Shown here piece by piece: positions 5,467 to 14,701 of a DNA stretch of 17,407 bases. The notes under the pieces are model-generated. The model was not told the DNA's origin. It saw only the letters and a program-made list of their open reading frames with translations, and did not search any database. Numbering within the stretch: position 1 is the first letter of the stretch; each line of letters opens with the position of its first letter. Location of the stretch: contig JAABQT010000009.1 in the NCBI GenBank assembly GCA_011391295.1, positions 1 to 17,407 of the forward strand. The letters run 5' to 3'. The translations under genes were made by a program, and so were the position numbers. Origin of the DNA: Betaproteobacteria bacterium (GTDB lineage: Bacteria; Pseudomonadota; Gammaproteobacteria; Burkholderiales; SG8-39).

Positions 5467-7044
5467 TCAGGTCGCGGCGGGGAGCTCGGCGACGCACACC
5501 TGGTCCCGCCCCGCGTGCTTGGCGCTGTAGAGCGCGACGTCGGCGGCCTTGAGGACGTCGGCCGGATTTTCCCCATGTATCGGATAGGCCGCGACGCCGA
5601 ACGAGGCGGTCGGCGCCGGCAGCGTCTGGCCGAGATGCGTGAGATTGGTGTCCCGAATCGCGACGCGCAGCGTCTCCGCCCGTGCGCGCGCGCACTCGAG
5701 GTCCGCATCGACCAGCACCACCACCAGCTCTTCGCCGCCGTAGCGGCAGGCAATGTCGGAGGGGCGGATGTTCTTGCCGATCGCGCGTGCCACGGCGCTC
5801 AGCACGAAGTCGCCAGCATCGTGGCCGTATTTGTCGTTGAACTGCTTGAAATGGTCGATGTCGATCATGATGATCGAGGCGGGCTTGCCACTGCGCTTGG
5901 CGCGGTGCAGTTCCCGCTTGAGCGAGTCCTCCATGTAGCGCCGGTTGTACAACCCGGTGAGGGTGTCGTGCAGCGCGAGCTCGCGCAGCGCATCGCGCAG
6001 CCTGAGATTGGCCAGCGCCGGCCCGATGCTGTCGGTGAACGCGCGCAGGCGCCGGTCGGCTTCCTCGGGCGGACGCGCGCCGCGGCCGCCCAGATCCAGG
6101 GCCAGGTGCAGCAACCCGAGCACTTGTCCCTGGCCCTGCACCGGCATGCACACGTAGCTGCTGCCCTCTTCGGGCGCATGCCGGCAGCGCACGGCGCCCT
6201 GGCGGGTCACGTAGTGCGGACGGCCGAGGCGCATCGCCCAGCAGTCCTCCGGCGCCACCACCTGTTCGCGTGCCTGCGCGGAATTCCATTCCGCGGCGTG
6301 CTCCAGCACGTCGCGCGACTCACGGAAGATATAGAGCGCCCCGGGGACGCCGGGGAACAGTTGCGCCGCCGTCTCGCGCACGATGGCGTAGGACTCGCCG
6401 CGCTGCGTGCTGGACTGCAGCAGTTCGGCCATGCGCGACAGTGCCTCGCCGTCGCGACGGAAGCCTTCGAGCTGGCGCACGGTCGACGCCAGCGCCAGAT
6501 TGGATTTGCGCATCGCGGATTCCGTCTTGCGGCGGGCGCCGATTTCGCGAGTCAGGTTGCGGTTCGACTCGCGGATGGCGGCCAGCCGCCCTTCCAGCGC
6601 AGCCTGGGCGCCGCGCAACGCCTCTTCGGTATGGTGCAGCGCAGTGACGTCGCGCGCCACAGTGATCTCGCCCGCGAGCCGCCCTTGCCTGTCGCGCAGC
6701 GGCGTGGTCTTCAGCGCTACGCGTACGGTCTCGCCGGTGCGCTTGCGCCGGTCGGCGGTCGAGGCGGTCGGCTTGCCGGCGCGGATGCGCTCAAGGATGC
6801 GGGCGTAGTCCGCTTCCGACAGGTCGGCGGCGTGCAGCTGCCGCAAGGTGCGCCCGACGGCCTCTTCGGCGCTGAAGCCGTACAGCGAGCTCGCCTCGCG
6901 GTTCCAGTAAGTGACGAGCGCGTTCATGTCCTTGACGATGATCGCCTCGCCCGTGTGCTCGAGCACCTGCTCGAGCTCGCGCACGTGCGCTGCAAGCTGG
7001 TCGCCCGCGCTGCCTCGAATCGGCACTGCCTTGACACTACGCAT
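5467..7044 (-). CDS. PAS-GAF-GGDEF diguanylate cyclase
   Basis: A predicted cytoplasmic diguanylate cyclase of 525 residues making cyclic di-GMP from two GTP. Domain order: PAS with C-terminal PAC motif (about 20-135; includes EAIIVKDMNALVTYWNREA), a predicted coiled coil (about 140-200), a GAF-like domain (about 205-345), then GGDEF (about 355-520). The active-site motif is GGEEL (436-440), a competent variant. An RxxD product-inhibition site (R427-D430) lies five residues before it, so feedback control is expected. No membrane segment is seen. AGGAGG at 7054-7049 sits just upstream of the ATG at 7044. It is divergent from the HD-GYP phosphodiesterase gene across 200 bases, which suggests opposed control of one pool. 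The sensory ligand cannot be told from sequence. Confidence 0.95.
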   Translation of the reverse strand: MRSVKAVPIRGSAGDQLAAHVRELEQVLEHTGEAIIVKDMNALVTYWNREASSLYGFSAEEAVGRTLRQLHAADLSEADYARILERIRAGKPTASTADRRKRTGETVRVALKTTPLRDRQGRLAGEITVARDVTALHHTEEALRGAQAALEGRLAAIRESNRNLTREIGARRKTESAMRKSNLALASTVRQLEGFRRDGEALSRMAELLQSSTQRGESYAIVRETAAQLFPGVPGALYIFRESRDVLEHAAEWNSAQAREQVVAPEDCWAMRLGRPHYVTRQGAVRCRHAPEEGSSYVCMPVQGQGQVLGLLHLALDLGGRGARPPEEADRRLRAFTDSIGPALANLRLRDALRELALHDTLTGLYNRRYMEDSLKRELHRAKRSGKPASIIMIDIDHFKQFNDKYGHDAGDFVLSAVARAIGKNIRPSDIACRYGGEELVVVLVDADLECARARAETLRVAIRDTNLTHLGQTLPAPTASFGVAAYPIHGENPADVLKAADVALYSAKHAGRDQVCVAELPAAT

Positions 7045-7127
7045 GGCCCCTCCTGCAAATTGTGCGGCGCCCCGGCCTGAGCCTGAGCGAGTGGCCGATC
7101 AGGCGCCCATCCTACGCTTGCGCGCGC

Positions 7128-7151
7128 CCGGGCCAGGCTTCCTCGGCCCGG
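7128..7151. repeat. Inverted repeat CCGGGCC/GGCCCGG in the divergent intergenic region
   Basis: Perfect 7-bp arms (7128-7134 and 7145-7151) are separated by 10 bases, between the cyclase gene and rpfG. It is followed on the plus strand by a pyrimidine-rich stretch but not by an immediate T-run. It could be an operator, an RNA hairpin in the cyclase leader, or chance in GC-rich DNA. Confidence 0.35.
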
Positions 7152-7187
7152 CATCACGCTTTCTTGCTTTTGGCTCAGGGTGTTAAC

Positions 7188-7216
7188 TGGACAGCCGGAG
7201 CAGTGGGGGGTAGGCT
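7188..7216 (+). promoter_or_regulatory. Candidate sigma-70 promoter for rpfG-rpfC
   Basis: TGGACA (7188-7193, one mismatch to TTGACA) and TAGGCT (7211-7216, a weak -10) are 17 bases apart. They predict a start near 7223, about 22 bases before the rpfG ATG. The spacing and position fit; the -10 box is poor, which is common where an activator helps. Confidence 0.4.
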
Positions 7217-7244
7217 TGCCGGTCCGTTTTCCCACGGGAAGTGC

Positions 7245-8336
7245 ATGGCAAAAGCGCAGCTCTTCGTGCTGCCGGCAGCGCGCAACACCGCGATGGTGGT
7301 CGATGACCAGTCGACCGGCCGCGCAATTCTCGAACAGGTGGTGCGTTCGCTCGACGATCGCGTGGCAGTCGAGGGCTTCCTGCGCCCGGTGGACGCGGTG
7401 GTGTGGGCCACGCGCCACGTCGCCGACCTGGTGCTGATCGACTACATGATGCCGGACATGAACGGCATCGAACTGGCCAAGCGCCTGCGCGCGCTGCCCG
7501 GCTACGAGAACGTGCCAATCATGATGGTCACCGCGCACGATGACCGTAAGGTGCGCTACGACGCGCTGGACGCGGGCGTCACCGATTTCCTCACCAAGCC
7601 GGTGGATGCGCGCGAGTGCATGGCGCGCTGCCGCAACCTGCTCACGCTGCGCCGCCAGCACCTGGCGCTGGAAGACCGCCGGCGCCTGCTCGAGGGCCTG
7701 GTGGACGAGGCGACGCGCGAAGTGCGCGACCGCGAGAAGGAGACATTGATGCGCCTGGCGCGCGCCGGAGAATTCCGCGACGAGGAAACCGGCTACCACC
7801 TGGTGCGCATGGCGCGCTACTCGCGCCTGATCGCCGACACCATCGGCCTGGAGCATGAGGAAGCGGAGTCCATCGAGCTCGCCGCGCCGCTGCACGACAT
7901 CGGCAAGATCGGCATCCCGGACCAGATCCTGCTCAAGTCGAGCCGGCTGGACGACACCGAGTCCGAGGTCATGCGCCGCCATCCGGTGATCGGTCACGAG
8001 ATCCTCAAGGGCAGCGCCTCGAAGTACGTGCGCATGGGTTCGCTGATTGCGCTCGGCCACCACGAAAAATACGACGGCTCGGGCTATCCCAACGGTCTGG
8101 TGGGCGACCACATCGCGCTGTGCGCGCGCGTCGTCGCCGTGGCGGACGTCTACGACGCGCTCACCTCGACGCGGCCGTACAAGAAGGCTTGGGGCGTCGA
8201 CCAGGCCTTCGAGTTCCTGGGGGCGCAGCGCGGCAAGCACTTCGATCCGCAGCTGGTGGACGCGTTCTCCGGCGTGCGCGAGAAGGTAGCGCGCATCCAG
8301 CTCGAGTTGCGCGACCCCGAGGCGGTGCGGCCATGA
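7245..8336 (+). CDS. rpfG: RpfG-like response regulator, HD-GYP cyclic di-GMP phosphodiesterase
   Basis: Two-domain regulator of 363 residues (Xanthomonas RpfG about 378). An N-terminal receiver carries phosphoacceptor Asp66 in LIDYMMPDMNG and the TKP lysine near 120. A short helical linker follows (about 135-170), then an HD-GYP domain with the HD pair His217-Asp218 (LHDIGKIGIPD), His272-His273 and DGSGYP with Gly280-Tyr281-Pro282. All catalytic motifs are intact, so it should hydrolyse cyclic di-GMP when phosphorylated. The start ATG at 7245 was chosen because it has a GGGAAG purine run upstream and directly precedes the receiver. The frame is open further upstream to 7062, but that stretch is unlike any receiver. 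The stop overlaps the rpfC start (ATGA), so the two are co-translated partners. Confidence 0.93.
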   Translation: MAKAQLFVLPAARNTAMVVDDQSTGRAILEQVVRSLDDRVAVEGFLRPVDAVVWATRHVADLVLIDYMMPDMNGIELAKRLRALPGYENVPIMMVTAHDDRKVRYDALDAGVTDFLTKPVDARECMARCRNLLTLRRQHLALEDRRRLLEGLVDEATREVRDREKETLMRLARAGEFRDEETGYHLVRMARYSRLIADTIGLEHEEAESIELAAPLHDIGKIGIPDQILLKSSRLDDTESEVMRRHPVIGHEILKGSASKYVRMGSLIALGHHEKYDGSGYPNGLVGDHIALCARVVAVADVYDALTSTRPYKKAWGVDQAFEFLGAQRGKHFDPQLVDAFSGVREKVARIQLELRDPEAVRP

Positions 8337-10852
8337 CGCTGCCGGGCGCAGTCTGGCTGCACGCGCTGCGCGCGCGGCTCGCGGCGCGGCCCGACTCCGA
8401 GCACGAGCAGGCGATCGTGCGTGTGGTGGTCGGATTGCTGCTCGGCCTGTACCTGCTGCCCGAGATCCTGGAGCGGTACGCCGAGGGCCTGCCCGAGCCG
8501 CATATTTTGGTCTGGAGCGGTTTTCTGGTTTTGTCGACGGCGATGTTCGTTGCGATTCTCGCGTCGCCAGGCGTGTCGCCGGCGCGTCGCGTCGCCGGTA
8601 CGGTCCTCGATGCCGCCACGCTCAGCTGGTGCGTCGCGTATTTCCAGGAGCTGGGCATTCCGCTGTTCCTGGTCTATCTCTGGTTTACTTTCGGCAACGG
8701 TTTTCGCTACGGCGCGCGCTACCTCGTGCTGTCACTGGTCCTGAGCATGCTCGGATTCGCGGTGGCGCTGAACGTGAGCGAGTACTGGCAGGCGCGACTC
8801 GACGTGGGCCTCGGCATGATCGTCGGCTTCGTCGCCCTGAGCCTGTACGTACTGACGCTGGTGAGGCGCATGTTCGATGCTGTCGCACGCGCCGAGGCGG
8901 CAAACCAGGCCAAGCGGCGCTTCATCTCGGTGGTGAGCCACGAACTGCGCACGCCGCTCAACGCCATCATCGGCATGGCCGACCTGATGCGCGACACCAC
9001 GCTGTCGCGCGAGCAGGCCGACATGCTGCAGACGCTGCGCGGCTCGAGCCAGTTGATGCTGGGCCTGGTGGAGGACGTGCTCGACTTCTCCAAGATCGAG
9101 GCCGGCAAGCTGGTGCTGGAGCGCACCGATTTCGACCTGCACGCGCTGGTCAACAGCACCAGCCGCATCCTGCAGACGCAGGCGCAGGCGAAGGGCGTGG
9201 AATTCGTGGTCTCGATCATGCCGGAGGTGCCGCCGGCCCTGCGCGGCGACGCGCACCACCTGCGCCAGGTGCTGATCAACCTGGCGGGCAATGCGGTCAA
9301 GTTCACCGAGCGCGGCAGTGTCACCGTGCACGTGTCGCTGCAGGAGGAGACCGAGACCGGCGTGCGCCTCAAGTTTTCGGTGCGCGACACCGGCATCGGC
9401 ATCCCGCAGGAGGCGCAGCAGCGCATCTTCGAGAGCTTCACGCAGGCCGACCAGTCCACCACGCGGCGCTTCGGCGGCACGGGCCTGGGCACCACCATCG
9501 CCAAGCAACTGGTCGAATTGATGGGCGGCAAGATCGGGCTGGAGAGCGCGGTCGGCCTGGGCAGCACGTTCTGGTTCGACATCACCTACGAGAAGCAGCC
9601 CGAGCGCGTGAGCGCCGGCGCGGGCGAACTCGCGGGGGCACGCATTCTTCTGGTCGGCATGCCCGCAGACCAGGCGCAGTCGATCGAGCAGGCGCTCGCA
9701 GCCTGGGGCGCGGTGGGCGTGCGCGCCGCCAGTGTGGACGAGGGCGCGGACCGCCTGATCTCCGACATCGCGCTCGCCAGGCCTTATCACAGCGTGCTGA
9801 TGTATTCGGAGCGCGGCGACCCGCAACTGGCGCGGCGCCTGCGTCGTGCCGCGCCCGAGCCGGCGCCGCCGGCGGTGCTGGCCGTGCCGCGCGAGGCCGA
9901 GGTGCAGCGCTTTGCCGCGCTGTCGGCGGGATTCAGCGCCGTGCTCGAGCTGCCGTTCGAGAAGCGCCAGCTGTTCAACGTGCTGCACGCGATCTCCTCT
10001 TCGGACGAGGTGAGCGACGGCGTGGTGCGGCTGAAGGATTACGCCAAGCGCGGTCAGGGCGCCAAGCGCCTGTCGGTGCTGGTGGCGGACGACAATCCGA
10101 CCAACCGCGAGGTGCTTGGCCGCATCCTCGAGCGGGCCGGGCACGGCGTGTCGCTGGTCGCGGACGGCGATCAGGCGCTCGACGCGCTGGAGGCCGGCCA
10201 GTACGACATCGTGCTGCTGGATCGCAACATGCCGGGCCTGAGCGGCCTGGAGACCCTGCAGGCGATCCGTCTGATGACGCGCGGCCGCGAGCGGCTGCCG
10301 GTGGTCATGCTCTCGGCCGACGTCACGCTGGAGGCGAAGCGCGAGTGCCTGGAGGCCGGGGCCGACAGTTTCGTTCCCAAGCCGGTGGAAGCCCTGCGCC
10401 TGCTGGACGAAATGCGCAGCCTGACGGCGGGCAAGTCGCAGGAGGCGGCGCGCGCGGCGCCCGCCGCCGCAGCGGCGCCAATGGGCGCGGAAGTGGTGAA
10501 TACCGAGACCCTGGCGCACCTCGAGGACCTGGGCTCGACACCGGATTTTCTCGAGCGGCTGGTCGGGGTATTCGTCGCTGACAGCCAGTCGTTGCTGGCG
10601 AAAATGGAAGCGTCGGTGGCGGCGCGCAATTTCGGCGACTTCCGCGCACACCTGCACGCCATGAAGGGGTCGGCGGCGAGCATCGGTACCGAGCGCCTCA
10701 CACGGCTGTGCGCGACGCTGGGCAAGAGTTCCGACGCCGAGCTGCGGCTGCAATCCTCGTCGCTGGTGCGCTCGCTGAACGAGGAGTTCGCCCAGGGGCG
10801 CGCCGCCCTGGAGCGCTACGTGCAGGAAAAGCGCAGCCGGTCGGCGAGCTAG
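8333..10852 (+). CDS. rpfC: RpfC-like DSF-sensing hybrid histidine kinase
   Basis: Membrane hybrid kinase of 839 residues predicted to sense a DSF-family fatty acid. A short cytoplasmic N-terminus contains DSEH (21-24), as in Xanthomonas RpfC. Five or six membrane helices follow (about 28-178), with FGNGFRYG and an RRVAGTVLD segment also close to RpfC. Then come HisKA with His203 (VSHELRTP), HATPase with Asn320, DTGIGIP (from Asp352) and the RpfC-typical GGTGLGTTIAK. A degenerate receiver spans about 434-556, with Tyr491 where the phosphoacceptor Asp should be and Leu in place of the conserved Lys. A true receiver follows (Asp586-Asp587, Asp630, Lys683), then an Ala-rich linker and a C-terminal HPt with His775 (LHAMKGSAA). 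Xanthomonas RpfC (726) lacks the degenerate receiver. The ATG at 8333 overlaps the rpfG stop. Confidence 0.93.
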   Translation: MTLPGAVWLHALRARLAARPDSEHEQAIVRVVVGLLLGLYLLPEILERYAEGLPEPHILVWSGFLVLSTAMFVAILASPGVSPARRVAGTVLDAATLSWCVAYFQELGIPLFLVYLWFTFGNGFRYGARYLVLSLVLSMLGFAVALNVSEYWQARLDVGLGMIVGFVALSLYVLTLVRRMFDAVARAEAANQAKRRFISVVSHELRTPLNAIIGMADLMRDTTLSREQADMLQTLRGSSQLMLGLVEDVLDFSKIEAGKLVLERTDFDLHALVNSTSRILQTQAQAKGVEFVVSIMPEVPPALRGDAHHLRQVLINLAGNAVKFTERGSVTVHVSLQEETETGVRLKFSVRDTGIGIPQEAQQRIFESFTQADQSTTRRFGGTGLGTTIAKQLVELMGGKIGLESAVGLGSTFWFDITYEKQPERVSAGAGELAGARILLVGMPADQAQSIEQALAAWGAVGVRAASVDEGADRLISDIALARPYHSVLMYSERGDPQLARRLRRAAPEPAPPAVLAVPREAEVQRFAALSAGFSAVLELPFEKRQLFNVLHAISSSDEVSDGVVRLKDYAKRGQGAKRLSVLVADDNPTNREVLGRILERAGHGVSLVADGDQALDALEAGQYDIVLLDRNMPGLSGLETLQAIRLMTRGRERLPVVMLSADVTLEAKRECLEAGADSFVPKPVEALRLLDEMRSLTAGKSQEAARAAPAAAAAPMGAEVVNTETLAHLEDLGSTPDFLERLVGVFVADSQSLLAKMEASVAARNFGDFRAHLHAMKGSAASIGTERLTRLCATLGKSSDAELRLQSSSLVRSLNEEFAQGRAALERYVQEKRSRSAS

Positions 10853-10908: not shown

Positions 10909-11820
10909 TTGGCTTGCGACGACCGATCCGAGCTGGCGGTTGACGAGCAGCCGCTGCGGATCTGCACCCTCGACGGTTACGAGTTGGGCGCGATCCTTTA
11001 CTCGGTGCGCACCGGCGACGCGCCGCGGCGTGCGGTCGTCCTGCACGGGGGCGCCGGGATCCCGGCGCAGCGCTACCGGCGCTTCGCCCGCTTTCTCGCG
11101 CAGTCGGGCATGCCGGTGCTGACCTACGATTTTCGCGGCGTCGGGCTGTCCCGGCCCTTGGCGCTGCGAGGATTCCGCTCGGTCATCGAGGACTGGGCGG
11201 AGTACGACTGCAGTGCGGCGATCGGCTGGTTGCGCGAGCGCTTCCCGCAGGCGGAGCTGATCGGAATCGCTCATTCGCTCGGCGCGCTGCTCTTTGGGGG
11301 GGCGCACAACGCCGCGGAGCAGGCCCGCCTGGTCCTGATCGGCGCCCATACGGGTTACTACGGCGACTATCGTCCGCTCTACCGGTTGCCGATGGCCGCG
11401 CTCTGGCACGGGCTGATGCCGGTGCTCACTCGCCTCATCGGCTACTTCCCGGGGCGCCGCCTGGGTCTCGGCGAAGACATTCCCGCTGGCGTCGCGCTGC
11501 AATGGGCCGCGCGCCGTTCGTCCGACCTGCGACCCGCCGGCGCCAATCCAGACGACGAGCGCACGCGGCGACTGCTCGACCGTTGCGCCGTGCTGGAGCG
11601 TCCCGCGCTCGTGATCCGGTTCAGCGATGACGCGTTTGCCACCGTCGCGGGCATGCGACGATTTCTTGCCTACTATCCACAGCTGTCGCCGCAGCACATT
11701 GTCTTCACACCTGCCGACGGGGGTGCGCGCAAGATCGGCCATTTCGGCTTCTTCAGTCGCAGGGCCGGGCCTGCCCTGTGGCCCCGGTTGGTCGCGCGAC
11801 TGCAGCCGCCGGAGCATTGA
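10909..11820 (+). CDS. Alpha/beta hydrolase, COG4757-like
   Basis: Predicted soluble serine hydrolase of 303 residues, substrate unknown. The alpha/beta fold order is visible: the strand with VVLHGGAGIPAQRYRRFA (about 43-60), YDFRGVGLSRP (about 75-85), the nucleophile elbow AHSLG with Ser123 (Ala replaces the first Gly of GxSxG), an acidic residue at Asp240/241 (RFSDDAF) and His278 (KIGHFGFF). FPGRRLGLGEDIPAG is typical of the COG4757 group as I remember it. The frame opens only at 10906, so the TTG at 10909 is the best start; it has no clear ribosome-binding site. It begins 56 bases after the rpfC stop on the same strand, so it is probably the third gene of the rpfG-rpfC transcript. Lipid ester or acyl thioester substrates are possible but unproven. 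Confidence 0.85.
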   Translation: MACDDRSELAVDEQPLRICTLDGYELGAILYSVRTGDAPRRAVVLHGGAGIPAQRYRRFARFLAQSGMPVLTYDFRGVGLSRPLALRGFRSVIEDWAEYDCSAAIGWLRERFPQAELIGIAHSLGALLFGGAHNAAEQARLVLIGAHTGYYGDYRPLYRLPMAALWHGLMPVLTRLIGYFPGRRLGLGEDIPAGVALQWAARRSSDLRPAGANPDDERTRRLLDRCAVLERPALVIRFSDDAFATVAGMRRFLAYYPQLSPQHIVFTPADGGARKIGHFGFFSRRAGPALWPRLVARLQPPEH

Positions 11821-11847
11821 GCGCCGCGCAAGGGGCTGCTCGGCGAT

Positions 11848-12795
11848 CTAGCCGGAGGCGTCGCGCTCCGCGCCCAGCGAGGCGAGCGGCGCGCGAGCGC
11901 GCGAATCCTCGGGGATGCCGGCGGCGCGCCGGATCGCCCGGGTGGTCTGGCCTGACCCGTCGGCTTTCCAGCCCGGGTGACCGAAGGCGAGGCCGAGCAC
12001 CTCGCGCAGGCTGCGCGCGGCGCGCAGGTCCCTGAACAAGGCCACCCACTCGGCAAACACGATCTTCACCGGGTTGAGCGTGTCGATCTGGCGCACCAGG
12101 CCGTAGGTGCGCGGCGCACCGTCGCGCTCCCTGGCATAGGTGCCGAACAACCGGTCCCAGACGATCAGCACCCCGCCGTAGTTGCGGTCCAGGTACTCGG
12201 GCTCGACGGCATGATGCACGCGGTGCAGCGAGGGCGTGTTCAGCACCGCTTCCAGCGCACCGAGCTTGGGCACCACCTCGGTATGCAGCCAGAACTGGTA
12301 CAGCAGGTTGATCGCGTACATCAGCACCACCGCGCGCGGATCGAAGCCGATCCAGCACACCGGCACCAGGAACAGCCACGGCCCGGCGAAGAACTGCGTC
12401 CAGCCCAGGCGGTAGGCGACCGAGAGCGTGATCTGGCGCGCGGAGTGGTGCACGCTGTGCTGCGCCCACATCCAGCGGATCTCGTGGCTGAAGCGGTGCA
12501 GCCAGTAGTAGGCCAGTTCCACGGCGAGGAACAGCGCCACCCAGCCCTCCCAGCGGTCCAGAGGAATGTCGAAGGGCCGCAACTGGTAGGCGGCGACGTA
12601 GACCGCCGCCACCAGTGCCTTGGTGAAGGCGTCGGTGCCGAGGCGGCCGACGGCCACGGCGAGATTGGAGGTCGTGACTTTCCAGCCGTAAGGCCGGTGC
12701 AGGGCGACGCGGTAGTACAGCGCCTCCAGCGCGATGGCGGCGAAGAACACCGGCAGCATCATCAGGTAAAGCTTGATCGGGTCCATGGCCGTCAT
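11848..12795 (-). CDS. Fatty-acid hydroxylase / sterol desaturase family membrane protein
   Basis: Integral membrane non-haem diiron oxygenase family protein (PF04116 type), 315 residues. Hydrophobic segments lie at about 8-30, 45-70, 85-100 and 135-170. The histidine clusters that bind the diiron centre are complete: HxxxH at His100/His104 (LHRFSHE), HxxHH at 113-117 (HSVHH), His171 (LHTE) and HxxHH at 191-195 (HRVHH). The family tail motif PEYLDRNYGGVL and WDRLFGTY follow. Family members hydroxylate or desaturate fatty acids, sterols or ether lipids; the substrate here is unknown. It is convergent with the hydrolase gene (27 bases between stops) and divergent from the next gene (47 bases). 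ATG 12795 or ATG 12786 could be the start; neither has a good ribosome-binding site. Confidence 0.9.
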   Translation of the reverse strand: MTAMDPIKLYLMMLPVFFAAIALEALYYRVALHRPYGWKVTTSNLAVAVGRLGTDAFTKALVAAVYVAAYQLRPFDIPLDRWEGWVALFLAVELAYYWLHRFSHEIRWMWAQHSVHHSARQITLSVAYRLGWTQFFAGPWLFLVPVCWIGFDPRAVVLMYAINLLYQFWLHTEVVPKLGALEAVLNTPSLHRVHHAVEPEYLDRNYGGVLIVWDRLFGTYARERDGAPRTYGLVRQIDTLNPVKIVFAEWVALFRDLRAARSLREVLGLAFGHPGWKADGSGQTTRAIRRAAGIPEDSRARAPLASLGAERDASG

Positions 12796-12809
12796 TTCAT
12801 ACCATCGGA

Positions 12810-12836
12810 TTGCTGAAACGCGTCTCGCGCTACAAT
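12810..12836 (+). promoter_or_regulatory. Candidate promoter giving a leaderless mRNA for the 12843 gene
   Basis: TTGCTG (12810-12815) and TACAAT (12831-12836) are 15 bases apart, short of the ideal 17. The ATG at 12843 comes 6 bases after the -10 box, where transcription would start. No Shine-Dalgarno sequence is present, in line with a leaderless message. Confidence 0.4.
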
Positions 12837-12842
12837 CCTGCG

Positions 12843-13508
12843 ATGTCTTTTTTCATCGAACTGGTCGAGAATTCCGACGCCAGCCGCCGCACGCTCGAGG
12901 AGGAGCCGCGCGTGCATGCGATGGTCCACCACGGGCTGACGCTGCCCGAATACAGCGCCTTCCTGCACGACCTATTCCACATCGTGTGGCACTTCTGCCC
13001 GGTGATGGCGGCTGCCGCGGCGCGCTGCGGCGACGATTTTCGCGACGTGCGCTACGCGCTGTACGAGCGCATCGAGGAGGAAAAGGGGCACGAGAGCTGG
13101 GTGCTGGAAGACATCGGGGCGTTGGGGGGCGATGTCTCCACAGCGCTTGCCAAACCGCCAAGCGTTCCGGTGCAGGCAATGATCGGGTACAACTACTACG
13201 CGGCCGATCGCGTTCATCCGTGCTCGGTGCTGGGCATGCTCTACGTGCTCGAAGTGATCTCCTCGGTGTACGGCGGGCGGGTCTCGGACTCGATCGCACG
13301 CAAGCTCGGGCGTGACGTGGGCGCGGGCGGATTCAGGTTCCTCAGCTCGCACGCGTCCATGGACCTCGACCACATGGCGAGCCTCAACCGTCTCCTCAAG
13401 ACGGTGCAGGACCCCGCCGCGCAGGCCGCGATCACACGCTCGACGCTGGTGAACTTCCATCAGTTCGGGCAGATTTTCAGGACCGGCGGTCCACTGGGCC
13501 CGGCATAG
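12843..13508 (+). CDS. Haem-oxygenase-like fold, putative diiron (iron-containing redox) enzyme
   Basis: All-helical protein of 221 residues resembling the iron-containing redox enzyme / haem-oxygenase-like diiron oxidase group, which also includes TenA- and UndA-type proteins. Candidate metal ligands are His42, His46 and His50 (FLHDLFHIVWHF), Glu80 and His83 (EEEKGHESW), Glu137 (GMLYVLEV), and His170, Asp174 and His177 (SHASMDLDHM). This spacing is what a diiron site in that fold would need. Known members oxidise or decarboxylate fatty acids or amino acids; the substrate here is unknown. The start ATG at 12843 was preferred over an in-frame ATG at 12810 because a TACAAT box lies between them. 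It is convergent with rpfF, with only four bases between the stop codons. Confidence 0.82.
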   Translation: MSFFIELVENSDASRRTLEEEPRVHAMVHHGLTLPEYSAFLHDLFHIVWHFCPVMAAAAARCGDDFRDVRYALYERIEEEKGHESWVLEDIGALGGDVSTALAKPPSVPVQAMIGYNYYAADRVHPCSVLGMLYVLEVISSVYGGRVSDSIARKLGRDVGAGGFRFLSSHASMDLDHMASLNRLLKTVQDPAAQAAITRSTLVNFHQFGQIFRTGGPLGPA

Positions 13509-13512
13509 GCGT

Positions 13513-14439
13513 TCAGGCCACCGCCGACAGCGCTTCGGCGGCGATGTCGGTGATGTCGCCTTCTTCCAGGCGCCGCACCTGCGCCCGCACCACGCGGCTC
13601 ATCATGCGCAGGTCGCGGTCCTCGAGCCGCAGCGCGCAGTCCACCCAGGTATCGGCGACCGCGTCGAGTTCCTCGCGCGTCACCGGGAACACCTGCTGGC
13701 GCGCACGCAGTACGCCCTGCAGGCCGTTCCTGCGCTTGGCGTTGGCGGCGATCCAGTCGCGCACCGCCGCTTCGCCTTGGCCGTCCTTCGCCAGCACGTC
13801 CACCACGCCCATCTCGTGCAGCTTGGCGGCGCTCAGCAAGCGGCCCGACAGGATCAGGCGTTCCGCGTCGCGCATGCCGATGCGCCGCGCGAGCAGGCTG
13901 TAGGCGCCCATGCCCGGGAACAGGTTGAACAGGATCTCCGGCAGGCCCATCTGCGCCGACTCTTCCGCCACCACCAGGTCGGAGGACAGGGCGGTCTCGA
14001 ATCCGCCGCCCAGCGCGTCGCCCTGCACCAGCGAGATCGTGGTCACCGTCGGGCAGCCGTAGTTGCTGATGCGCGCGTGCACGTTGTCGATGCACAGCCG
14101 CGCGTAGTGCGCGAGCGCGTCGCGGTCGCGCGCCTTGATCAGCAGGAGGAACAGCGCCAGGTCGCCGCCGAGGTTGAACACCTTGGGCACGCGCGAGGCG
14201 GCGACGTACCAGTTCACCGGGTGCAGGTCGCCGGCGAACTCGACGCGCCCGCCGTTGGCGGTGAGCGCCTGGTCGTGGTCGCCGATCTCCTTGAGGATGC
14301 CGAGGTTGAAGCAGGCGTTGCCGCGCTGGTTCATGAATCCCCACAGCGTGCCGCTGGCAGGTTCGAACTCGAACTCGAGCTCGCGGTAGGTTTTCGTGCA
14401 CGGCGCGCGCAGCCCGATCATGTCGTTCATGTTGCTCAT
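13513..14439 (-). CDS. rpfF: RpfF-like DSF synthase (crotonase fold)
   Basis: Predicted synthase of a cis-2-unsaturated fatty-acid signal. RpfF enzymes act on 3-hydroxyacyl-ACP as dehydratase and then thioesterase. At 308 residues it is a little longer than Xanthomonas RpfF (289). The diagnostic segments are present: FNLGGDLALF (88-97), VQGDALGGGFETALSS with catalytic Glu148, and MGLPEILFNLFPGMGAYS with catalytic Glu168. The two glutamates are 20 residues apart, as Glu141 and Glu161 are in Xanthomonas. The C-terminal RVVRAQVRR also resembles RpfF. An ordinary enoyl-CoA hydratase is unlikely because these segments are RpfF-specific. The start ATG at 14439 is set by a strong GGGAGGAG site (14453-14446) six bases upstream. 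The frame is open further to 14688, but without support. Confidence 0.93.
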   Translation of the reverse strand: MSNMNDMIGLRAPCTKTYRELEFEFEPASGTLWGFMNQRGNACFNLGILKEIGDHDQALTANGGRVEFAGDLHPVNWYVAASRVPKVFNLGGDLALFLLLIKARDRDALAHYARLCIDNVHARISNYGCPTVTTISLVQGDALGGGFETALSSDLVVAEESAQMGLPEILFNLFPGMGAYSLLARRIGMRDAERLILSGRLLSAAKLHEMGVVDVLAKDGQGEAAVRDWIAANAKRRNGLQGVLRARQQVFPVTREELDAVADTWVDCALRLEDRDLRMMSRVVRAQVRRLEEGDITDIAAEALSAVA

Positions 14440-14534
14440 CTGAATCTCCTCCCAGATAGAAAAGCCCCCATGGCGGGGGCCAATGCCCGAGGCCCGGATG
14501 CGGCGATAAACCGCGCGAGCCTCCCCGGAGTCAT
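14436..14534 (-). CDS. Possible 32-codon leader ORF overlapping the rpfF start
   Basis: An ATG at 14534 opens a 32-codon frame whose TGA (14438-14436) overlaps the rpfF ATG as ATGA. A modest AAAGAG lies seven to twelve bases upstream. The peptide is rich in Ala, Arg, Gly and Pro, with no run of one amino acid. Codons 22-25 run through a terminator-like hairpin (14480-14464). If translated, ribosomes would melt that hairpin and finish at the rpfF start. It may equally be a chance frame, since rpfF has its own strong ribosome-binding site. Confidence 0.3.
   Translation of the reverse strand: MTPGRLARFIAASGPRALAPAMGAFLSGRRFR
14464..14480 (-). terminator. Terminator-like hairpin in the rpfF leader
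   Basis: On the minus strand GCCCCC (14480-14475) and GGGGGC (14469-14464) form an all-GC 6-bp stem with a five-base loop, followed at once by TTTTC. This has the form of an intrinsic terminator. It lies about ten bases upstream of the rpfF Shine-Dalgarno sequence and 24 bases before the start codon, so it would act as an attenuator on any transcript starting further upstream. The U-run of four is short, so termination may be partial. Confidence 0.5.
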
Positions 14535-14556
14535 TTAACGCTCTTTGACATTCCCT

Positions 14557-14595
14557 GTGCAAATCGGGGAATCCCCGATGCACGCACCGGGGATT
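14557..14595. promoter_or_regulatory. Nested inverted repeats upstream of rpfF
   Basis: The 304-base region between rpfF and the 78-codon gene holds, besides the leader ORF, hairpin and promoter listed separately, this block. ATCGGGG (14563-14569) pairs with CCCCGAT (14573-14579), extended outward by GTGC (14557-14560) and GCAC (14580-14583). AATCCCC (14570-14576) pairs instead with GGGGATT (14589-14595). The two foldings share one arm and exclude each other, as in switching leaders. Alternatively the three GGGGA/TCCCC half-sites could be a protein-binding operator. I see no clear rpfF promoter boxes. Confidence 0.4.
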
Positions 14596-14671
14596 GGCGC
14601 GGTCCTGGGAAGCGCGCGGAATCGGTAATCCGTGCGACTGGCGATGCTCGGCCTGCCAGCGGCAGACTCTG

Positions 14672-14701
14672 TTGTAAATCAGACACACTATCGGTTATAA
14701 A
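14672..14701 (+). promoter_or_regulatory. Promoter of the 78-codon gene
   Basis: TTGTAA (14672-14677) and TATAAA (14696-14701) are 18 bases apart. They predict a start near 14708 and a leader of about 36 bases carrying the GGAGGGG ribosome-binding site (14733-14739). TTATAA at 14695-14700 is its own complement, so weak divergent activity toward rpfF is conceivable. Confidence 0.55.

Follow-up and report, generated by a model that had tools for sequence, protein, structure and literature searches.

Why three genes whose products look, from their sequences, like acyl-modifying enzymes should stand between rpfC and rpfF, the sensor and synthase genes of a diffusible signal factor (DSF) system, is the question raised by a 17,407-nucleotide contig of a betaproteobacterium (JAABQT010000009.1, assembly GCA_011391295.1; here called the window), which belongs to a metagenome-assembled genome (MAG) that is 62% complete. 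The genes encode an alpha/beta hydrolase (ABH), a membrane protein of the FA_hydroxylase superfamily (FAH) and a haem-oxygenase-like protein (HOL); as the initial annotation of the window had described, all three lie in this gap as open, intact reading frames, and Pfam domains were found in each. The explanation favoured here, to which a probability of about 0.58 is given, is that a tailoring oxidase is built into a DSF quorum-sensing cluster of the RpfGC/RpfF type: HOL would oxidise the fatty acid that RpfF makes, and a modified signal would result. This explanation draws on the gene content of the locus, the pairing of HOL with RpfF in three gene layouts, fusions of the two proteins, the ligand set and fold of HOL, which are those of a haem-oxygenase-like dimetal oxidase (HDO), and the exchange of acyl enzymes at this site.

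Pairing of HOL with the DSF synthase

Genome contigs were scanned with an alignment of 24 HOLs and two peptide patterns taken from SG8-39-type HOLs, and the best 80 of 81 relatives were kept; relatives without those two peptide words are missed, making the count a lower bound, and most of the loci come from MAG contigs. An rpfF homologue adjoins or lies near HOL in 79 of the 80 loci, the contig of the remaining one (L116) stopping inside HOL. The two genes are convergent in 27 loci, HOL precedes rpfF on one strand in 47, and rpfF precedes HOL in five, four of which are single RpfF-HDO fusion proteins. In at least seven of the co-directional pairs the genes overlap by 4 bp, as measured to the longest RpfF open reading frame (ORF) start. 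In most SG8-39-type loci rpfG, rpfC and HOL share one strand, and in most lineages outside that set HOL either immediately precedes rpfF on the same strand or is fused to it. A search outside the SG8-39-type loci for a recurrent third gene beside HOL and rpfF, made with rough gene calls, found only RpfC-like kinases to be widely recurrent.

Recurrent co-occurrence with rpf genes, the test proposed in the initial annotation, was seen for all three gene families and, for HOL, went far beyond expectation. Among 98 genomes of the SG8-39 family, 48 carry RpfF (E<=1e-50) and 25 carry HOL (E<=1e-15), the HOL orthologue standing at the rpf locus in all 25. Its rpfF is visible in 24; in the other (G030) the contig, after rpfG-rpfC, breaks off within HOL. 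Of the 80 scanned loci, about 25 are from the same genomes as this census or from close kin, so the two counts are not independent. In a control sample of 250 genomes of the order, 47 contained RpfF (E<=1e-30) and 36 a match to the HOL profile (E<=1e-10). Four of these HOLs score at least 246 bits, and all four adjoin rpfF. The other 32 genomes hold a separate group of weaker paralogues (124-155 bits), none of which is near an RpfF match in the sample; only four of these genomes (G041, G135, G151 and G263) have an RpfF match at all, and never nearby.

The four fusions (L115, L122, L148 and L153), from two records titled Alphaproteobacteria and two titled Proteobacteria, join RpfF, a linker and HOL in one ORF of 628-688 residues. 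All four show the Glu motifs of the crotonase half as well as the HDO ligands, and Pfam found both domains in both of the fusions that were scanned. Searched against proteins, the HDO half of one fusion matched 14 clusters, 13 of them with crotonase and PF14518, including the query's own record. The 14th (P0138, 746 residues) is an AMP-binding acyl ligase (PF00501) fused to a distant PF14518 HDO, whose HDO domain shares about 33% identity with the HOL half of P0121. Fusion with the synthase would be more in keeping with biosynthesis than with degradation, and because the pairing recurs in three layouts as well as in fused form, HOL is read as contributing to synthesis of the signal rather than to its destruction.

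Predicted chemistry of HOL and RpfF

HOL carries a complete HDO ligand set of three His and three carboxylates (E80, H83, E137, H170, D174 and H177). These six residues are kept in 80 of 81 aligned HOLs (D174 is once Glu), the 81st row ending after E137. In profile comparison the H-x3-D-x2-H motif aligns with those of CADD and UndA, and the 13 PDB matches include MboA, CADD, UndA (5.1e-5) and BesC but lack true haem oxygenases. The structural model (pTM 0.90) has the seven-helix haem-oxygenase fold, and its structural matches (Foldseek, VIA) include 3dde, CADD, UndA and BesC, with CADD and UndA among the best. By ligand set and fold HOL is thus classed as an HDO, for which metal binding and O2 activation are predicted. 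The fold of the model resembles haem oxygenases about as well as it does UndA. In true haem oxygenases the first helix carries a conserved His that ligates the haem; His25 of HOL, the nearest candidate as judged by position, is His in 22 of the 81 rows. Identity as a true haem oxygenase is disfavoured on two grounds, the ligand set and the 13 PDB matches of the profile, which include HDOs but no haem oxygenase.

UndA is remote from HOL (about 15% identity) and differs in that HOL is rpfF-linked; MboA, an acetylenase, and CADD, a p-aminobenzoate synthase, perform peptide or self-sacrificial chemistry, and, unlike for HOL, no rpf context is mentioned for them in the available parts of their descriptions (PMC13185094; PMC13108848). 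The Shewanella denitrificans protein 3dde is uncharacterised and about 19% identical to HOL.

PDB relatives of the window RpfF include RpfF 3m6m (1.1e-53), and the Glu pair of the window protein, E231 and E251, falls on chain positions 157 and 177 of 3m6m, both Glu being kept; the two catalytic Glu of RpfF are E141 and E161. The Glu motif is present in 73 of 79 HOL-linked RpfFs, and the remaining six extractions are incomplete. All six RpfFs that were scored, including that of the window (354.8 bits), exceed the PRK08788 cut-off of 177, and none reaches the NCBIfam RpfF equivalog cut-off of 550 bits (219.2 for the window and 181-246 for the other five). In a tree from which seven short rows of 79 were left out, the HOL-linked RpfFs form two deep clades. 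RpfC and RpfG have the domain architecture of an RpfGC two-component pair, HisKA-HATPase-REC-Hpt with membrane input (at least four hydrophobic segments ahead of HisKA) and REC with HD-GYP, respectively.

Characterised RpfF dehydrates 3-hydroxyacyl-acyl carrier protein (ACP) and sets free a cis-2-enoic acid; the thioesterase activity of the enzyme liberates saturated acids as well (PMC4504480). In several HDOs with substrate-bound structures the substrate ligates Fe1, and in UndA, which decarboxylates medium-chain fatty acids, the Fe1 ligand is the fatty-acid carboxylate (PMC13108848). Because HDO substrates bind in this manner, the fatty acid leaving RpfF is an obvious candidate substrate for HOL. 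The substrate, the reaction and the identity of the product with the signal are inferred. RpfF, a dehydratase and thioesterase in its characterised homologues, would free a 2-enoic acid and other fatty acids from acyl-ACP; HOL, a soluble HDO, would hold the fatty acid through its carboxylate at one iron, activate O2 and oxidise the chain by desaturation, hydroxylation or oxidative C-C cleavage; and the released signal would be a DSF-type molecule in modified form, matched to its own RpfC. FAH and ABH would be optional extra enzymes of acyl tailoring or release, exchanged within the gap between rpfC and rpfF.

A broader proposal, offered tentatively and at somewhat less than even odds, is that RpfF and HOL, or their fusion, constitute a two-step synthase for a so far undescribed class of oxidised DSF-type signals (e.g. 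2-ynoic, dienoic or hydroxylated acids) in Burkholderiales and some other Proteobacteria, and that the gap is an exchange site at which lineages swap tailoring enzymes and thereby change the dialect of the signal. The DSF signals known so far are simple cis-2-unsaturated acids that RpfF makes without a partner. The predicted iron oxidase that many bacteria have beside the DSF synthase, and sometimes fused to it, probably alters DSF, and the signal family may exceed its known size; a dedicated diiron oxidase paired or fused with the synthase points to oxidised variants. To our knowledge most HDOs are without a known substrate, and the pairing with RpfF offers this superfamily a defined candidate substrate class. 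A targeted search of open-licence literature, partly at the level of titles and abstracts, found no report of an HDO paired with rpfF or DSF; both parent families are known, and their coupling appears to be new. By record title the carriers include culturable Noviherbaspirillum, Piscinibacter, Azohydromonas, Lacisediminimonas and Schlegelella strains, in which the pairing is directly testable.

Exchange of acyl enzymes between rpfC and rpfF

The gene content of the gap varies within the SG8-39 family. Among the 25 genomes with HOL, the gap holds HOL alone in 18, FAH and HOL in four (G098, G114, G115 and G117), a PF00487 desaturase and HOL in one (G031), and ABH, FAH and HOL in the window. In the one remaining genome (G006:C246) HOL is accompanied by a frameshifted tandem second copy and a PF00487 desaturase, which together separate it from rpfF (L024 and L090); the desaturases of the gap belong to loci L022 and L024. 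Among family genomes without HOL, ABH occupies the gap in three (G092, G105 and G018), lies beyond rpfF in one (G101) and is cut off by the contig end in another (G110); five carry genes for ACP and a ketosynthase in the gap (G010, G035, G119, G120 and G121); nine have no inserted gene, their rpfC and rpfF matches being 125-300 bp apart; and seven have more distant RpfFs (40-47%), three of them with a ketosynthase directly upstream of rpfF. In one genus (g8; L073, L074, L075, L076 and L081), the dedicated ACP and ketosynthase genes placed in the gap suggest a private fatty-acid supply for the signal. Ketosynthase genes directly upstream of rpfF or beside rpfG (three genomes and two, respectively) were seen at L083, L084, L085, L052 and L166.

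These data do not bear out the proposal of the initial annotation that the three genes form one system, which was rejected: HOL alone is the widespread partner of rpfF, FAH joins it in few genomes, and ABH, also patchy, usually replaces HOL rather than accompanying it. The window is the sole locus seen with all three together, and its arrangement may conceivably come from a mis-joined contig, although its two halves, rpfC-ABH and FAH-HOL-rpfF, both occur in other genomes. The suggestion that FAH and HOL share a promoter fared differently in its two parts, as the divergent 47-base spacer is present, while a conserved shared promoter was rejected, little of the spacer being conserved among five FAH-HOL loci.

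FAH has the three His boxes of PF04116 (HxxxH, HxxHH and HxxHH) as HRFSH, HSVHH and HRVHH, invariant in the family except for one residue, and falls short of the OlsE equivalog cut-off (69.7 against 475). At 70% identity or more, it lies at the rpf locus beside HOL in five of five family genomes and also in G160, and none of the weaker matches in the same family genomes (seven places) is on an rpf contig. In the order sample, FAH of at least 75% identity occurs in two genomes, both times within a FAH-HOL-rpfF block, and none of the 39 weaker places is on a contig that also has an RpfF match. The G160 locus (L166, contig C52) is an SG8-39-like FAH-HOL-rpfF block at 70-75% identity in a genome of another family (f18), and may reflect transfer or bin contamination.

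ABH retains Ser123 in six of six orthologues, and the SDD and GHFG motifs in the five that are complete. At about 60% identity or more it is rpf-linked in six of six family genomes (rpfF is visible in five, and one contig stops inside ABH), while 18 weaker places in the same genomes are never on rpf contigs; in the order sample ABH exceeds 40% identity only in the window. It directly follows rpfC in the window and in L050, L051, L053 and L054. Because the ABHs of the window and G092 are 83% identical and their RpfFs 69%, the sequences suggest that ABH was recently transferred.

Mapped on a tree of 39 RpfF rows from the family, full-length or nearly so (fragments such as G002, G031, G100 and G121 were left out), the presence of HOL requires seven changes, that of FAH four and that of ABH four. 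Because the four gap-content groups jointly require eight changes, compared with a mean of 16.2 after shuffling, the contents of the gap have changed repeatedly yet non-randomly. The hydrolase and the hydroxylase are members of a set of acyl enzymes, including desaturases and ACP with ketosynthase, that swap within the gap in one family.

Alternative roles for HOL and the setting of the locus

The pairing should not be over-read: a strong HOL is found in only four of the 47 order genomes that bear RpfF, so HOL is an accessory to rpf systems. Of the other roles considered for it, the least improbable, though still unlikely, is a fatty-acid vent, in which HOL would act like UndA and turn the saturated free acids released by the RpfF thioesterase into 1-alkenes or other products, taking the role that falls to RpfB in Xanthomonas. 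RpfF does make free saturated fatty acids that RpfB counteracts (PMC4504480), a medium-chain fatty-acid decarboxylase, UndA (PMC13108848), is among the profile and fold matches of HOL, and the swapping of HOL with an esterase-like ABH would fit. The similarity to UndA is remote, however, many RpfF systems carry neither gene, and a vent would not need fusion to the synthase.

Signal turnover, in which HOL, or ABH in other genomes, would destroy the signal and reset quorum sensing, is rather less probable again. The one-strand order of rpfG, rpfC and HOL in most SG8-39-type loci, which could allow HOL to be co-expressed with the sensor, and the position of ABH directly 3' of rpfC agree with it, but the placement of HOL in most other lineages, directly upstream on the rpfF strand or fused, would be odd for a degrading enzyme. 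It is improbable that HOL is instead a structural or an oxygen- or redox-sensing partner that regulates RpfF: close pairing, even fusion, is in itself no proof that both proteins catalyse reactions of one molecule, yet the metal ligands are kept in every complete HOL row and other acyl-chain enzymes fill the same gap. That the genes are mere passengers, unrelated to the signal, at a site that tolerates insertions, as the patchiness of FAH and ABH might suggest, is already unlikely for HOL and very improbable overall, given that HOL stays with rpfF in each of the three layouts, in both deep RpfF clades and as a fusion, while HOL paralogues and weaker FAH and ABH relatives are unlinked to rpfF.

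The nearest described system is the rpf/DSF system of Xanthomonas (rpfB-rpfF and rpfGHC), with which the window shares a crotonase-type synthase, a hybrid kinase RpfC, an HD-GYP regulator RpfG and rpfGC genes convergent to rpfF. The window differs in having an HDO, and optionally FAH and ABH, between rpfC and rpfF, and in an RpfF that scores below the cut-off of the NCBIfam RpfF equivalog (219 against 550). The statement in the initial annotation that Xanthomonas rpfF and rpfC are neighbours without such genes is consistent with PMC4504480, which describes an rpfGHC operon that lies next to rpfF and converges on it.

Coordinates of the features of the rpf locus are collected in Table 1. The genes of the window are, in order, secF, secD, yajC, tgt, queA, a PAS-GAF-GGDEF gene, rpfG, rpfC, ABH, FAH, HOL, rpfF, dNK, folK and pcnB. 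The likelier start of rpfC is an in-frame ATG at 8333, overlapping the rpfG stop. Because most relatives of RpfF align only from about residue 74-84, its true start is probably internal.

Table 1. Features of the rpf locus in the window
Feature	Position	Strand	Description
rpfG	7062..8336	+	longest ORF; receiver and HD-GYP regulator; Response_reg 9.4e-24, HD_5 5.9e-34; HD...GYP motif
rpfC	8120..10852	+	longest ORF; hybrid sensor kinase; HisKA, HATPase_c, Response_reg, Hpt
ABH	10909..11820	+	alpha/beta hydrolase after rpfC, same strand; TTG start; Hydrolase_4 (Pfam) 7.4e-13
FAH	11848..12795	-	membrane FA_hydroxylase-superfamily protein, divergent to HOL; PF04116 1.9e-29
Spacer	12796..12842		47 bases between the FAH and HOL start codons
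HOL	12843..13508	+	haem-oxygenase-like dimetal oxidase (predicted); PF14518 1.5e-17; model pLDDT 93.2
rpfF homologue	13513..14688	-	crotonase; 391-residue ORF, convergent with HOL

The PAS-GAF-GGDEF gene (5467-7044), encoding a diguanylate cyclase, sits between queA and rpfG and had no tblastn counterpart in the family loci spanning that interval; it may be another local insertion, beside a regulator of cyclic di-GMP. Outside the SG8-39-type set, an rpf-HOL locus also lies near dNK-folK-pcnB in L114, L130 and L167 (Herminiimonas and Lacisediminimonas records, and G235), and because these share the vicinity, the site is old or has been used repeatedly. Two SG8-39-type loci (L088 and L116) come from MAG records titled Bordetella parapertussis, names that look wrong.
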